64,000 nucleotides of DNA from contig NZ_JACHJP010000008.1 of assembly GCF_014203715.1 (NCBI RefSeq), positions 186,001 to 250,000 of the forward strand. The letters run 5' to 3'. The translations under genes were made by a program, and so were the position numbers. Source of the DNA: Streptosporangium saharense. GTDB taxonomy: Bacteria; Actinomycetota; Actinomycetes; Streptosporangiales; Streptosporangiaceae. The notes beneath the pieces were generated by a model. It worked only from the letters and a program-made list of their open reading frames with translations, searched no databases and was not told where the DNA came from. Below, in pieces: positions 18,426 to 31,580 of this stretch (the stretch's first letter is position 1; each line of letters starts with the position of its first letter).

Positions 18426-19364
18426 TTAGGAGAGCGTCCGGTCGGGCTGGCCGTCGCGTACCCATGTGTACACGCGGGTGATTCCTTCCTCGATGGGAGT
18501 GGTGGCCGTCCATCCCAGGTCATGTTCGGCGGCGGTGGCGTTCAGGGCGCTGCGCTGGAGTTCGCCGGGCCGGGCGGCGGCGAAGAGCGGTTCGATGTCG
18601 CGACCGGCCACCTGACCGATGTGCTTGATCAGCTCCAGGACGCTGGTCTCCTGGCCGGTGCCGATGTTCCACACCCCGCCCTCTTGGGTGTCGCCCGCGG
18701 CGAGGAACGCGGCGGCGACGTCGCCGACATAGACGTAGTCGCGGGTCTGTGTGCCGTCGCCGAAGATCGTGGGTCGCTGGCCGGTGTGGGCGTAGCCGGA
18801 GAAGATCGCCACCACGCCGGCCTCGCCTGCGGGGTCCTGGCGGGGTCCGTAGACGTTGCCCAGCCGCAGCGCGGTGTGGCGGGTGCCGTACAGCCGATTG
18901 AACAGGCCGAGATACTGCTCGGCGCAGTACTTCGCCGTGCCGTACGGGGCTTCGGGTGCGGGTTGGACCTGCTCGTTGGAGGGGATGGGCGCCTCCATTC
19001 CGTACAGGGCGCCGCCGGTGGAGGCGAACACGAGTTTGGCGTCCACCTGGCGGGCGGCCTGCAGCAGGTTGATGGTGCCGCCGATGTTGATGGCCGCGTC
19101 ACGCGCCGGGTCGCTGACCGATGCCCGGACGTCGATCTGCGCGGCCAGGTGGTAGATGATCTGCGGTTGCGCCTCGGCGACCACGGCGTTGACCGAGGCG
19201 GCGTCGGTGATGTCGATCTCCCAGAGCCTGGGGCCCTCGGGAAGGCGGCTCGTCCGGCCGCTGGAGAGGTTGTCGAGCACGTGGACGGTGTCGCCGCGTT
19301 GGAGGAGGGCATCGACGATGTGGGAGCCGATGAATCCGGCGCCGCCGGTGACGAGTGTGCGCAT
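18426..19364 (-). CDS. NAD-dependent sugar epimerase, UDP-glucose 4-epimerase-like
   Basis: Extended short-chain dehydrogenase of 312 residues. The NAD-binding motif TGGAGFIGSHIVDALLQRG is at the N-terminus, the catalytic Tyr-x3-Lys is YGTAK, and the sugar-nucleotide segment is LRLGNVYGPRQDP. The pattern fits GalE-like enzymes that act on UDP-hexoses or UDP-uronates. It is the last gene of a four-gene minus-strand operon (decarboxylase-like, CysO-like, SUMF1-like, epimerase) and starts 30 bases after the SUMF1 stop. The ATG at 19364 is placed by the conserved N-terminus; the frame continues upstream without coding character. Together with the decarboxylase-like gene it suggests making or modifying a nucleotide sugar. 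Confidence 0.85.
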   Translation of the reverse strand: MRTLVTGGAGFIGSHIVDALLQRGDTVHVLDNLSSGRTSRLPEGPRLWEIDITDAASVNAVVAEAQPQIIYHLAAQIDVRASVSDPARDAAINIGGTINLLQAARQVDAKLVFASTGGALYGMEAPIPSNEQVQPAPEAPYGTAKYCAEQYLGLFNRLYGTRHTALRLGNVYGPRQDPAGEAGVVAIFSGYAHTGQRPTIFGDGTQTRDYVYVGDVAAAFLAAGDTQEGGVWNIGTGQETSVLELIKHIGQVAGRDIEPLFAAARPGELQRSALNATAAEHDLGWTATTPIEEGITRVYTWVRDGQPDRTLS

Positions 19365-19393
19365 GCCCGGCAGCCTAGGGGCGCTCACGCTGG

Positions 19394-20305
19394 CTAACGT
19401 GAGAAATCGAGCTGCTCCGTGTCCACGTCGGCCGCGCAGCGAAACCCGGTCGCCCAGGTGCTGTAGGACGGATGGCAGGCGATGCGTTCGGTGGTGCGTA
19501 CCTGCCAGCGCATGTTCATCCAGCCGCCACCGCGCAGGACACCGTAGCGTCCCTGGGCGAGGCGCAGGATCGGGTCGCAGTTCACTTCCGGCGCATACAG
19601 CCGATAGGGGGTGGCGATCCATTCGGCGACGTTGCCCGCCATGTCAGCGAGCCCGAAGGGAGAGTCGCCGCCTGGGAACGCGCCAACCGGTGTGGTCGCC
19701 GGCCGCTCACCCTGGCAGGATCGCCGCTGGGCCCACCAGCGATGCCAGTCGGTCAGGTCGCCCAACAGCCGTTCGGCCCAGTGCTCAGCACAGTTGACGC
19801 ACGCGGGATCGAAGTCCTCTCCCCAGGGCCAGGGCCGCCAGGTGGAGCCGTGTGCGGCGTACTCCCATTCGGCCTCGGTGGGCAGGCGTTTGCTTGCCCA
19901 GGCGCAGTAGGCCTCAGCGTCGGCGCGGGCGATGTGTACCACCGGATGCCGCTGGCGGCCGGTCAGGTCGCTCCCGGCTCCGGAGGGACTCCGCCAGCAG
20001 GCTCCGGCGCGTTCCTCCCAGAAGTGTTCGCCGTAGACCAGTCCAAACCCCCGCTGTTCGGCCTCGGTTCGATAGCCGCTGGCACGGACGAAGAGGTCGT
20101 AGGAGGCATTGGTGACCGGGTGACGATCCAGCAGGAAGGGTGCTACCTGGCAGGGGTGTCGCGGGCTCTCGTCAGCGAACCAGGTCCGCGGGTACGGCTG
20201 GGCGTCACCGACCTGGTCCAGGTGCGCGCCCGGCGCTCCGATCAGCACCCGGCCGCCGGGGATGGCCACCATGTTGGCCCTGCCTTCTGCGATCGTGTCG
20301 GTCAT
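19394..20305 (-). CDS. SUMF1 / FGE-fold protein without the FGE copper cysteines
   Basis: A 303-residue protein of the formylglycine-generating-enzyme fold: MVAIPGGRVLIGA at the start, ESPRHPCQVAPFLLDRHPVT, LPTEAEWEYAAHG, GLADMAGNVAEWI and VLRGGGWMNMRWQVRTTER at the end. True FGE has two active Cys in the RGGSxxC...C region; here that region has none. EgtB-type C-S bond-forming enzymes share this fold but carry an N-terminal DinB domain with three iron ligands; that domain is absent. It is therefore an orphan member. The ATG at 20305 has a GGAGG site and lies two bases after the CysO-like gene, so the two are coupled. A role in oxidative sulfur chemistry with the carrier is an attractive inference. 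Confidence 0.8.
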   Translation of the reverse strand: MTDTIAEGRANMVAIPGGRVLIGAPGAHLDQVGDAQPYPRTWFADESPRHPCQVAPFLLDRHPVTNASYDLFVRASGYRTEAEQRGFGLVYGEHFWEERAGACWRSPSGAGSDLTGRQRHPVVHIARADAEAYCAWASKRLPTEAEWEYAAHGSTWRPWPWGEDFDPACVNCAEHWAERLLGDLTDWHRWWAQRRSCQGERPATTPVGAFPGGDSPFGLADMAGNVAEWIATPYRLYAPEVNCDPILRLAQGRYGVLRGGGWMNMRWQVRTTERIACHPSYSTWATGFRCAADVDTEQLDFSR

Positions 20306-20307
20306 GG

Positions 20308-20592
20308 TCAGCCTCCTGCCAGCGCGGGTAGCACGACGATCTCGCTATTGGTCGGCACCACGGTGTCCAGGCCCTGCAAAGCACGAACGTCGTGCTCTCC
20401 CACGTAGAGGTTCACCCAGCTCACCAACCGGCCCGGTTCGGCCAGGACTCGCGGCTTGAGGACGGGGTAGGCCTCGACGAGCCAGTCAATGGCGCCGCCG
20501 ACCGTTTCCGCAGTGCACTGCAACGATGGGTTCTGGATTCCTCCGACGGCACACCACGCCGAGGGAATCACGATGACGACCACGGCGGTCAA
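20308..20592 (-). CDS. CysO/MoaD-type ubiquitin-like sulfur carrier protein
   Basis: A 94-residue beta-grasp protein ending exactly in LPALAGG, the C-terminal di-glycine that becomes a thiocarboxylate. The order IPSAW...VGGIQ, TVGGAIDWLVEAYP, WVNLYVGEHDVRALQGLD, IVVLPALAGG matches CysO of Mycobacterium (the sulfur donor of the CysM route) closely. No cysteine synthase or Mec hydrolase is beside it; instead it overlaps by 4 bases the end of a UDP-glucuronate decarboxylase-like gene and precedes a SUMF1-fold gene. CysO-family carriers are known to supply sulfur for 2-thioglucose in BE-7585A biosynthesis, so a similar donor role in sugar or natural-product sulfuration is plausible. The activating enzyme (MoeZ type) would have to be encoded elsewhere. 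Confidence 0.85.
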   Translation of the reverse strand: MTAVVVIVIPSAWCAVGGIQNPSLQCTAETVGGAIDWLVEAYPVLKPRVLAEPGRLVSWVNLYVGEHDVRALQGLDTVVPTNSEIVVLPALAGG

Positions 20593-21527
20593 CCGGCCTG
20601 CGCCGTACGGGCCCAGGCGACGGTGCGCTCGATGCCCGCGCGCAGCGGCACCGTCGGAGTCCAGCCGAGCAACTCGCGGGCCCGGCTGATGTCCGGGCAG
20701 CGCATCAGGGAATCCTGCGCACGGCCAGGGACGATCTCGACATCGCCCGAGCCGACCACCTCGACCACCAACTCGGCCAGCTCCCGGATGGTGACCTCCT
20801 GGTCGGAGCCGAGGTTGATGGGGCCGCTCTGATCGCTGTCAAGCATGGCGATCATCCCACCGACAAAGTCATCGATGTAGCACAGCGATCGAGTCTGGGT
20901 TCCGCCGCCGTGCAGCGTCAGCGTCTGCCCGGCCATCGCACTCCGAATGAACGCGGGCACCACCCGCCGGTCACTGTCGTACATGCCGCCCCCATAGACG
21001 TTGAAGGGCCGCACGATGCCGATGTCGAGGCCGTACTGGCGCTGGTAGGCGAACGCGGCTGCCTCGGAGAAGCGCTTGGCCTCGTCGTAGCACGACAGCG
21101 GCTCCGTCGAGGACACGTTGCCGCGGTAGTCCTCACTCTGCGGATGCACGAGAGGGTCGCCGTAGATTTCGGAGGTGGAGACGAGCAGGAACCGTGCGTC
21201 ATCCCGCTGGGCCAGCTCCAGCACGTTGAACGTGCCGATCGAACCGGCGTGCATCGTGGCTATCGGACGCTGCTGGACGACGTCGGGTCCGACCGGAGTA
21301 GCCATGTGCACGACCGCGTCCACTCGGCCACAGTCGATCGGGTCGATGACGTCCTGCTTCAGGAAGGTGAAGCTGTCGTTCTTGAGCAGGTCGTCCAGAG
21401 CGGTCAGGCGTCCGGCCGAAAGGTTGTCCAGTGCGGTGACCCGGTCACCCCGATTCAACAGCGCCGCGCACAAGTGGGTGCCGATGAATCCGGCACCACC
21501 AGTGACCAGAACATGTCGTGACGTCAT
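20589..21527 (-). CDS. NAD-dependent epimerase/decarboxylase, UDP-glucuronate decarboxylase (UXS)-like
   Basis: A 312-residue extended short-chain dehydrogenase. N-terminal TGGAGFIGTHLCAALLNRGD binds NAD. STSEIYGDPLVHPQSEDYRG, CYDEAKRFSEA (catalytic Tyr-x3-Lys as YDEAK), RPFNVYGGGMYDSDRRVVP and TQTRSLCYIDDFVGGMIAML follow the pattern of UDP-glucuronate decarboxylases, which make UDP-xylose or its 4-keto form. The ATG at 21527 has AAAGGAAA upstream. It is the first gene of the four-gene operon and its stop overlaps the CysO-like start (ATGA). A divergent TPR regulator lies 256 bases away and is the likely controller. Exact sugar uncertain. Confidence 0.85.
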   Translation of the reverse strand: MTSRHVLVTGGAGFIGTHLCAALLNRGDRVTALDNLSAGRLTALDDLLKNDSFTFLKQDVIDPIDCGRVDAVVHMATPVGPDVVQQRPIATMHAGSIGTFNVLELAQRDDARFLLVSTSEIYGDPLVHPQSEDYRGNVSSTEPLSCYDEAKRFSEAAAFAYQRQYGLDIGIVRPFNVYGGGMYDSDRRVVPAFIRSAMAGQTLTLHGGGTQTRSLCYIDDFVGGMIAMLDSDQSGPINLGSDQEVTIRELAELVVEVVGSGDVEIVPGRAQDSLMRCPDISRARELLGWTPTVPLRAGIERTVAWARTAQAG

Positions 21528-24425: not shown

Positions 24426-24462
24426 GGTCTGGTGGTGGATGGGTCTGTTGGAATGCATTTGT

Positions 24463-24478
24463 CGGTCGTCCACGACCG
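24463..24478. promoter_or_regulatory. Palindrome in the dpgA leader, candidate operator
   Basis: CGGTCGT-CC-ACGACCG, perfect 7-base arms. It lies about 25 bases before the dpgA start and just ahead of its AAGAAAGGGGGGG ribosome site, so it could be a repressor site or an RNA hairpin affecting translation. It does not resemble the palindrome at the TetR-cupin gene. Confidence 0.45.
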
Positions 24479-24503
24479 GAATTCCAAGAAAGGGGGGGAC
24501 GAA

Positions 24504-25628
24504 ATGACTCTGACCCTGTCGGAAACGGAAGCGTCGCCGCTCGAGAAACGGAACAGGGTCCTGCCCCGGATCGTTGGCATCGCCACCGCGACCCCGCCGC
24601 ACTCCTATGCGCAGAGCGAACTCCTCGACATATTCGGGATAACCGACAGGCGCATCAGGTCGCTCTTCATGAACAGTGCGATCGACCGGCGTTTCCTGAC
24701 CCTCCCGCCCGAGGAGCCGGGTGGTGGGCGGCGGGTGGAGACCCAGGGTGAGCTGCTGCGCAAGCACAGGACGTCGAGTGTGGAGATGGGGGCGCGGGCG
24801 GTCCGCGAGTGTGTGGCGCGCACCGGTCTCGACCTCTCCGAGATCGGCTACATCTGCTGCGTCACCACCACCGGTCTGCTCACCCCCGGCCTGTCCGCGC
24901 ACCTGATCAAGGAGCTGGGGCTCAGCGTCCACACCAGCAGGCTCGACGTGGTCGGCATGGGGTGCAACGCCGGGCTCAACGGCCTGAACGCGGTGGCGGG
25001 ATGGGCCGGTGCCCACCCGGGCCGCCCGGCCCTGATGGTCTGCGTGGAGACCTGTTCGGCGGCGTACGTCTTCGACGGCACCATGCGCACCGCCGTGGTC
25101 AACAGCCTGTTCGGCGACGGCGCCGCCGCGGTGATCCTGATGGCGGACCCGTCCGGTCTGCTGGAGGAAGGCCACGTCCGCGCCGAGGGACCGACCATCC
25201 TCAAGTTCTCAAGCTGCATCATCCCCGACGCCATCGACGCGATGCGCTACGACTGGGACGAGGACCAGGGCAAGTTCAGCTTCTTCCTGGACCGTGACGT
25301 GCCGTACGTCGTCGGCGCGCACGCCGAGCTCATCATCGGGCGGCTGCTGGCGGACACCGGGGTACGGCGCAGCGACATCGCGCACTGGATCATCCACTCC
25401 GGCGGCAAGAAGGTCATCGACTCGGTCCAGATCAACCTCGGACTGACCAGGCACGACGTCCGGCACACCAGCGGGGTGCTGCGGGACTACGGAAACCTCT
25501 CCAGCGGTTCCTTCCTGTTCTCCTACGAACGGCTGATGGCCGAGGGACGCGTCCAACCGGGCGACCACGGAATCTTCATGACAATGGGCCCCGGCTCGAC
25601 CATTGAAACCGCCCTCGTCCGCTATTGA
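24504..25628 (+). CDS. dpgA: Type III polyketide synthase, 3,5-dihydroxyphenylacetyl-CoA synthase
   Basis: Condenses four malonyl-CoA to a linear tetraketide that cyclises to 3,5-dihydroxyphenylacetyl-CoA, helped by DpgB and DpgD. The 374-residue protein has the catalytic Cys in VGMGCNAGLNGL, the His in WIIHSGGKKVID and the Asn in YGNLSSGSFLF, the type III triad. The N-terminus (RIVGIATATPPHSYAQSELL, FMNSAIDRRFLTLP) is characteristic of the DpgA group of glycopeptide pathways. ATG at 24504 has an AAGAAAGGGGGGG leader; an upstream in-frame start lacks one. It is the first gene of a six-gene operon that makes 3,5-dihydroxybenzoate. One of the few CTCGAG sites in the window (24540) is in its early codons. 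Confidence 0.95.
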   Translation: MTLTLSETEASPLEKRNRVLPRIVGIATATPPHSYAQSELLDIFGITDRRIRSLFMNSAIDRRFLTLPPEEPGGGRRVETQGELLRKHRTSSVEMGARAVRECVARTGLDLSEIGYICCVTTTGLLTPGLSAHLIKELGLSVHTSRLDVVGMGCNAGLNGLNAVAGWAGAHPGRPALMVCVETCSAAYVFDGTMRTAVVNSLFGDGAAAVILMADPSGLLEEGHVRAEGPTILKFSSCIIPDAIDAMRYDWDEDQGKFSFFLDRDVPYVVGAHAELIIGRLLADTGVRRSDIAHWIIHSGGKKVIDSVQINLGLTRHDVRHTSGVLRDYGNLSSGSFLFSYERLMAEGRVQPGDHGIFMTMGPGSTIETALVRY

Positions 25629-25673
25629 CCAATTAAAAAGACATATTTCGCGCTTTTCGAGAGAGGGACTTCT

Positions 25674-29306
<3,633 letters not shown>

Positions 29307-29337
29307 TCGACTCACACGTCACAAGGAGGTGGCCGCG

Positions 29338-30777
29338 ATGAGCGGTCTGATCCAGTTGGACGCCGGGCCCGACCCCGAGCTCTCCGGTGACCGACTCCAG
29401 GTGCGGGAGCCCGCCACCGGACTGCCGCTCGCGGTCGTCACGCTGGCGAGCCCCGCCGACATCGCCGCCGCCGTGGACGTCGCCCGGGAGGCACAGCCCT
29501 CCTGGGCGGCGACGCCGCCGACCGGGCGGGCAGCCGTACTGCGCAGGGCAGCGGCCGCGCTGGAACGGCACCGCGCCGAGGTCGCGGACCTGCTGGTCCG
29601 CGAGGGCGGGGCGATCCGGGGCAAGGCGGAGCACGAGGTCGGCGCCGTCCTGGACGAACTGTGGGCGGCCGCCGCGCTGCCCACCCGCCCGCAGGGCCAC
29701 CTCCTGGCCGCCGAGCCGGGCAGGGAGAGCCACGCCCGGCGGCTGCCGCTCGGCGTGGTCGGCGTGATCAGCCCGTGGAACGTGCCGCTGCTGCTGGCCA
29801 CCCGCGCCGTCGCCCCCGCCCTGGCCCTCGGCAACACCGTCGTCCTCAAACCCGACGTGCGCACCCCGCTCTCCGGGGGCCGGGTCCTCGCCCGGATCTT
29901 CGAGGAGGCCGGGCTGCCCGAGGGGGTGCTGCGCGTCCTGCCGGGCGGCGCCGTACCGGGACAGACCCTGGTGGAGCACCCCGACGTGGCGATGATCGCC
30001 TTCACCGGCTCGACAGCCGTCGGCCGCAGGATCGGCGCGGTCGCCGGGGGCATGCTCAAGCGGGTCTCGCTCGAACTCGGCGGCAACAGCCCGCTGATCG
30101 TGCTCGACGACGCCGACCTGGAGGCCGCCGCCTCGGCCGGTGCCTGGGGCTCCTTCTTCCACCAGGGCCAGATCTGCATGGCCTCCGGCCGTCACCTGGT
30201 GCACCGCGCCGTCGCCGACCGCTACCTCGAACTGCTCGTCGAACGCGCCGGGAAGCTGCGCGTCGGCGACCCCTTCCGCGAGCAGGTCGATCTCGGCCCC
30301 GTCATCGACGGCGGGCAACTCGACCGGATCGAGCGGATCGTCGGGGAGTCCGTCGAGGCCGGGGCCAGGCTCCTGGCCGGAGGAGTGCGCCGCGGTCCCT
30401 TCTACGAGCCGACCGTGCTGGCCGGGGTCACCCCGGACATGCCGGCCTTCACCGAGGAGATCTTCGGCCCGGTCGCCCCGGTCACCGTGGTCGCCGACGA
30501 CGACGAGGCCGTCGCGCTCGCCAACCGCACCGCCTACGGCCTGTCCGCCGCCATCCAGACGGGTTCTGTACGGCGTGGCCTGGCCATCGCCGACCGGCTG
30601 CGCACCGGCATGGTGCACGTCAACGACCAGACCGTCAACGACGAGTCCCACGTGCCCTTCGGCGGCCGTGGCGCCTCGGGCAACGGCACCCGGCACGGCT
30701 CCGAGCACAGTTGGGACGAGTACACCCAGTGGCAGTGGCTGACTGTCCGCGAGACCCCGGCGAGGTATCCGTTCTGA
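29338..30777 (+). CDS. NAD(P)-dependent aldehyde dehydrogenase, benzaldehyde dehydrogenase-like
   Basis: Expected to oxidise 3,5-dihydroxybenzaldehyde to 3,5-dihydroxybenzoate. The 479-residue protein has the aldehyde dehydrogenase hallmarks: [20 protein letters not shown] (cofactor and substrate Asn), [12 protein letters not shown], catalytic Glu in LELGGNSPL, catalytic Cys in [10 protein letters not shown], and [12 protein letters not shown] at 29338 has AAGGAGGT eight bases upstream, which outranks the in-frame GTG at 29329. The stop overlaps the dpgD start by one base (TGATG). Confidence 0.9.
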
Positions 30778-31580
30778 TGGCCGGAGAGCTGACCCGCCTG
30801 CGGTACGTGAAGAAGGGCCGGGTGGGTTACGTCACCCTCGACCGGCCCGAGGTGCTCAACGCCATGGACCTGCGGATGCACGAGGAGCTGCGCGGGGTCT
30901 GGGACGAGATCGAGGCCGACGACGACGTCTGGGTGGTGGTGCTCGCGGGCGCCGGGGAGCGGGCCTTCTCCGTCGGCCAGGACCTCAAGGAGCTGGCCGA
31001 ACGGGTGCGGGCGGGCACGTCCCTGTCCACCTTCGGCAGCCGGGGCAGACCGGGCTATCCCCGGCTGACCGAGCGGTTCGCCTTCGCCAAGCCGGTCATC
31101 GCCAGGGTCCAGGGCTTCGCCATGGGCGGCGGCTTCGAGCTGGCGCTCGCCTGCGACATCATCGTCGCCGCCGAGGACGCGGTCTTCGCGCTGCCCGAGG
31201 CGAAGCTCGGCCTCGTCGCGGGCGCGGGCGGGGTGTTCCGGCTGGCCCAGCAACTGCCGTACCGGGCCGCGCTCGGCCACCTGATGACCGGCCGCCGCCT
31301 GACCGCCCGCAGGGCCCTGGAGTACGGACTCGTCAACGACGTCGTCCCGGCCGGGGAACTGGACGCCTGCGTGGACGGCTGGGTGCGCGACATCCTGCGC
31401 TGCGCCCCGCTGTCCGTCCGCGCCATCAAAGAAGCGGCCGCCCAGGCCGTCACCACCCCGCTCGAACGGTCCTTCGCCACCCGCCACGTGTGGGAGGAGC
31501 GCCGGATGCACAGCAGGGACGCCCTTGAGGGGCCGCTCGCCTTCGTGGAGAAGCGCGAACCCGAGTGGACCTGCACCTGA
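30777..31580 (+). CDS. dpgD: DpgD, enoyl-CoA hydratase-like aromatisation enzyme
   Basis: Crotonase of 267 residues; DpgD works with DpgA and DpgB to complete formation of 3,5-dihydroxyphenylacetyl-CoA. Typical crotonase motifs are present: [18 protein letters not shown] (first oxyanion loop), [20 protein letters not shown] (second), and [20 protein letters not shown] with the active-site Glu region. It begins at ATG 30777, overlapping the aldehyde dehydrogenase stop by one base; much longer frames upstream are shadows. Last gene of the operon, followed directly by a strong terminator. A general enoyl-CoA hydratase is the alternative, but position next to dpgABC makes DpgD likely. Confidence 0.9.

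Follow-up and report, generated by a model that had tools for sequence, protein, structure and literature searches.

A conserved four-gene cassette pairing a CysO-like sulfur carrier with a CalU17-like SUMF1-fold protein in Streptosporangium saharense, a candidate unit for NDP-sugar sulfuration

The antitumour antibiotic calicheamicin contains both a thiosugar and a trisulfide, and the way in which their sulfur is mobilised and installed has been stated to be unknown (PMC4851618). The closest described systems to the locus analysed here are CalU17 of the calicheamicin cluster, the BexX/CysO 2-thioglucose system of BE-7585A, the CysO-CysM-Mec cysteine pathway, and the CalS8/CalS9 and AtmS8/AtmS9 sugar pathways. 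In this study, we analysed a window of 64,000 nt from Streptosporangium saharense (NZ_JACHJP010000008.1, positions 186,001 to 250,000), which contains the following four genes.

20589..21527, minus strand: sdr1, extended SDR, homologue of UDP-glucuronate decarboxylase/UDP-xylose synthase (UXS); Pfam Epimerase
20308..20592, minus strand: sulfur carrier, CysO/MoaD-like, beta-grasp; likely start GTG 20583; PF02597, ThiS
19394..20305, minus strand: SUMF1-fold gene, CalU17 clade; PF03781, FGE-sulfatase
18426..19364, minus strand: sdr2, homologue of GalE-type NDP-sugar 4-epimerases; Pfam Epimerase

The preliminary description of this DNA took the four genes for one operon, and the same order was found again in many genomes, which argues that the arrangement is not due to chance. 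Of the spacing given there, the 2-base gap (carrier to SUMF1-fold gene) and the gap of about 30 bases (29 bases, SUMF1-fold gene to sdr2) were confirmed, but the ATGA overlap was not: the sdr1 stop overlaps TTG, the earliest possible carrier start, as TTGA. Comparison with relatives points to GTG 20583, 5 bases after the sdr1 stop, as the true carrier start. As described, the operon lacks a cysteine synthase, Mec or ThiG-like gene, none being present among the four Pfam assignments. The cassette is flanked downstream by a convergent XRE/DUF5753 regulator and a DUF397 gene, and upstream by a divergent NsdA-family TPR regulator. The suggested control of the cassette by this TPR regulator could not be upheld, since L123 was the sole other cassette at which a related divergent gene was found.

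The SUMF1-fold protein is 303 aa in length, with PF03781 as its only Pfam domain. Against solved structures, it matched CalU17 at 310 bits and every other protein at 120 bits or less. A tree of 30 sequences placed the CalU17 clade apart from FGE (support 100/99), with CalU17 falling among the enediyne members and the proteins of the stand-alone cassettes clustering together with weak support (79/56). The FGE (2q17) region GGSYLCHDSYC aligns with the cysteine-free GGGWM---NMRW, and the FGE cysteine pair is missing across the 30 aligned sequences, in which the sole invariant cysteine, C290, is also found in FGE. Clade-invariant residues for which FGE has another residue or a gap include Q36, W42, F43, W190, W191, Q268 and E273. 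The EgtB/SenA family of sulfoxide/selenoxide synthases carries an N-terminal DinB domain with iron ligands. No DinB domain was found in the SUMF1-fold protein by Pfam scan, and it scored far under the cut-offs of the NCBIfam EgtB and SenA models; the EgtB-type assignment made earlier is thus replaced by a CalU17-like one. Given the missing FGE cysteines, the missing DinB domain and the separate clade, it would be unsafe to ascribe either FGE or EgtB chemistry to the protein. A search for literature naming CalU17, or formylglycine enzymes together with MoaD and biosynthetic clusters, found nothing useful.

The carrier of the window ends in LPALAGG, and a Gly-Gly end is present in all 27 SUMF1-partnered carriers. 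The best fold matches of its predicted model (mean pLDDT 93) are CysO of the BexX/CysO complex (4n6e) and CysO of Mycobacterium tuberculosis (3dwg), which together with the ThiS domain bears out its description as CysO-like; it also resembles SAMP1, a ubiquitin-like modifier. A P-x-x-W motif lies near the start of all partnered carriers aligned and is absent from the two CysO paralogues of this genome. The same genome has a Mec-CysO-CysM locus on a contig other than that of the cassette (C1:1713338), whose carrier ends in AVAGGSR and lacks the P-x-x-W motif, and it encodes a MoeZ-like protein with a ThiF part and a rhodanese part, the latter read from the sequence. Since the genome thus holds a Mec-CysO-CysM locus apart from the cassette, together with a MoeZ-like activator, the carrier studied here is distinct from the housekeeping one, and the possibility that it serves only the CysM route, raised in the preliminary description, was not borne out. 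An additional CysO-like carrier gene lies right after a threonine-synthase-like gene elsewhere in this genome (L002:1453-1731).

The pairing of the SUMF1-fold gene and the carrier is well supported. A carrier ORF adjoins the SUMF1-fold gene in 27 of 29 loci, the exceptions (G303 and G264) having no carrier nearby. Among the matches listed, no carrier was found at any of 80 generic SUMF1 loci (flank ≤8 kb, same threshold), an imperfect control as these are generic FGE-like loci mostly from other phyla. Pairwise distances of the two proteins are strongly correlated (Mantel r 0.94, 0 of 5000 permutations), which indicates joint inheritance rather than contact, because common phylogeny contributes to this value.

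Relatives of the SUMF1-fold protein (E < 1e-50) were present in 26 of the 343 genomes of the family. In a class-wide sample, the clade occurred in 3 of 395 genomes, all three from the window's own family, and a plasmid search extended it to Streptomyces. The later locus neighbourhoods were determined by tblastn. One type of locus is the stand-alone cassette, whose fullest order is UXS-carrier-SUMF1-GalE and whose gene order is kept in other genomes, so that the lack of a conserved neighbourhood, named in the preliminary description as a refutation, was not found. Every stand-alone cassette has a UXS and/or a GalE-type gene and no enediyne genes; sdr1 is missing from two (L120 and L134) and an sdr2 ortholog from two others (L121 and L122), which stop at SUMF1. 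The L134 cassette, carrier-SUMF1-galE, lies upstream of a phage portal gene, at a distance of about 1 kb, on a circular plasmid of Streptomyces. A second, degenerate cassette in one genome (L116, G055 contig 12) has a truncated SUMF1 match of 128 aa and a carrier ending in AGS instead of AGG.

The remaining loci are of enediyne type and mostly carry either a SufS-type cysteine desulfurase gene or UGDH-UXS genes. When the loci were extended, an enediyne PKS or accessory genes of one were present in G226, G126, G307, G250, G133 and G060 and at both loci of G275, and also on the NBC_00209 plasmid. G303, G264 and G259 were assigned to this type on the basis of a common gene order, and the 80 kb inspected for G303 showed no enediyne-type PKS. 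UGDH, UXS, SUMF1 and carrier genes are contiguous in G275 (contig 9) and G259. The calicheamicin-like loci also carry a CalE6-like lyase gene and a homocysteine S-methyltransferase-like gene, and one of them has a TDP-glucose 4,6-dehydratase gene. G275 and the calicheamicin-like loci have a SufS-type cysteine desulfurase gene close to SUMF1, and the desulfurases of L132 and G275 score above the SufS cut-off. Three calicheamicin-like loci (G307, G275 contig 4 and G060) have the pair and no UXS match in the 80-120 kb examined. Most genomes of the family with a CalS9-like UXS have no SUMF1 relative, so UXS is independent of SUMF1, and we dropped a strict tie between the two on these grounds. Taking together the patchy occurrence of UXS, the contiguous UGDH-UXS genes of some loci and the sugar genes of the stand-alone cassettes, the common element is the pair plus an NDP-sugar pathway.

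The two sugar enzymes of the cassette are UXS- and GalE-like as the preliminary description had them. Against solved structures, sdr1 matched UXS at 283 bits and the next family at 130 bits, and it contains both the TSE triad (STSEIYG) and the YxxxK motif (YDEAK), which are the decarboxylase signature (PMC10338323). The sdr1 of L117 has STGD where the TSE region is expected. The homologues of L121 and L122 have lost both the TSE motif and the SDR lysine (YEEAR) and are therefore possibly no longer decarboxylases. For sdr2, the top solved structures are UDP-glucose 4-epimerases (4zrm and 7ys8), and the top NCBIfam model is galE, with a score under the galE cut-off. UGDH homologues are encoded in the window's genome. 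At another cassette, a UDP-galactopyranose mutase-family gene (L119:7309-8457) precedes sdr1 by about 40 bases, a hint at a cassette sugar in furanose form.

The simplest account of these data is the sulfuration of an NDP-4-keto-sugar, and the core of the sulfur-sugar reading offered earlier is kept as the best account, with a chemistry that we infer from the homologies and the CysO analogy. With moderate confidence, we propose that the cassette is a self-contained NDP-sugar sulfuration unit in which carrier sulfur would pass via the CalU17-like protein to the sugar. By analogy with CysO, a cysteine desulfurase, together with the MoeZ-like E1 from elsewhere in the genome, would convert the Gly-Gly end of the carrier into a thiocarboxylate. 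UXS, judging from homology and motif, would convert UDP-glucuronate into a UDP-4-keto-pentose or UDP-xylose. The CalU17-like protein may then hold the carrier tail and steer the sulfur to an activated sugar, probably a 4-keto one, so that an NDP-thiosugar is formed, while the GalE homologue may set the configuration at C4 or tune the precursor pool. The acceptor sugar of the cassette is probably a UDP-4-keto-pentose; the corresponding pair of calicheamicin-type clusters would form the 4-thiohexose. Across loci, the cassette has no conserved glycosyltransferase or acceptor gene beside it, and we know of no sulfur sugar from UGDH-UXS enediyne clusters.

The sulfur of the pair might instead go to an acceptor other than a sugar, or be delivered as a persulfide, with the enediyne trisulfide, a protein or a small thiol as examples, and the sugar genes would then be independent neighbours. 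The CalE6-like and homocysteine S-methyltransferase-like genes of the calicheamicin-like loci would fit such a role, as would the PIG-L deacetylase-family gene found directly downstream of sdr2 in two genomes (L113:7957-8667 and L114:7948-8658; Pfam scan of the L113 copy), which is reminiscent of low-molecular-weight thiol pathways. However, apart from the pair, the stand-alone cassettes encode nothing but sugar enzymes and they lack enediyne genes, which makes a common role on the sugar likelier than one on the trisulfide, and the contiguous UGDH-UXS-SUMF1-carrier genes of G275 and G259 have no CalE6-like matches nearby; we consider a non-sugar acceptor unlikely. Net sulfur transfer could also be absent, with the carrier a ubiquitin-like modifier, as its likeness to SAMP1 would allow, and the SUMF1-fold protein a binding partner with a regulatory or scaffolding role towards the NDP-sugar enzymes. 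This would suit a protein with no known metal site and no invariant cysteine beyond the FGE-shared C290, but it is distinctly unlikely considering that the closest fold of the carrier is that of a thiosugar-pathway CysO and that cysteine desulfurase genes lie beside the pair in calicheamicin-like loci.

In two further parts of the window (24453-31580 and 37205-64000), a chalcone/stilbene-synthase-like type III PKS gene, accompanied by genes for three enoyl-CoA hydratase-type proteins, a TPP enzyme and an aldehyde dehydrogenase, lies beside large type I PKS genes. Together they resemble a cluster for a polyketide whose starter is of dihydroxyphenyl or dihydroxybenzoate type. As these genes lie in the same window, about 3 kb off, the cassette might decorate their polyketide. 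We regard this as improbable, since regulators stand between the cassette and the PKS genes, the parts of the window that we examined held no recognised glycosyltransferase gene, and other cassettes have different surroundings, including the Streptomyces plasmid site beside a phage portal gene. A classical role, in which the SUMF1-fold protein is a formylglycine-generating or EgtB-type oxidative enzyme and the carrier is unrelated or housekeeping, has the common PF03781 domain in its favour; with the FGE cysteines and DinB absent, the clade separate from FGE, the CysO-CysM locus separate and the carrier adjacency conserved, it is highly improbable.

Sulfuration of an NDP-sugar thus remains our preferred reading. 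More tentatively, CalU17-type SUMF1-fold proteins may represent a new class of thiosugar synthases that act with a dedicated thiocarboxylated carrier on NDP-4-keto-sugars, both in enediyne clusters and in stand-alone cassettes. If true, this would extend sulfur-carrier chemistry to a SUMF1-fold partner, and a four-gene relative without enediyne machinery reduces the calicheamicin sulfur question to a small in vitro reconstitution.

The link of the SUMF1-fold gene and the carrier to enediyne clusters is not mentioned in the preliminary description. CalU17 (7ml6, 7msy and 6vqp) resembles the cassette protein in fold, clade and the missing FGE cysteine pair, but its gene lies in an enediyne cluster, whereas the homologue studied here belongs to a four-gene unit with UXS and GalE-type genes. 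The BexX/CysO system shares with the cassette a CysO-type carrier, the closest fold match, and a MoeZ-like activator in the genome; however, BE-7585A biosynthesis uses a borrowed carrier and the ThiG-like BexX, while the cassette has a dedicated carrier, a SUMF1-fold partner and NDP-sugar enzymes, with no BexX among its four genes. The CysO-CysM-Mec pathway is alike in carrier family and Gly-Gly end but is encoded elsewhere in the genome, by a locus whose carrier differs in its AVAGGSR end and in lacking P-x-x-W. CalS8/CalS9 and AtmS8/AtmS9 likewise have a UXS-type decarboxylase feeding a 4-keto-pentose, but they lead to an aminopentose, whereas the cassette has neither an aminotransferase nor a 2,3-dehydratase.
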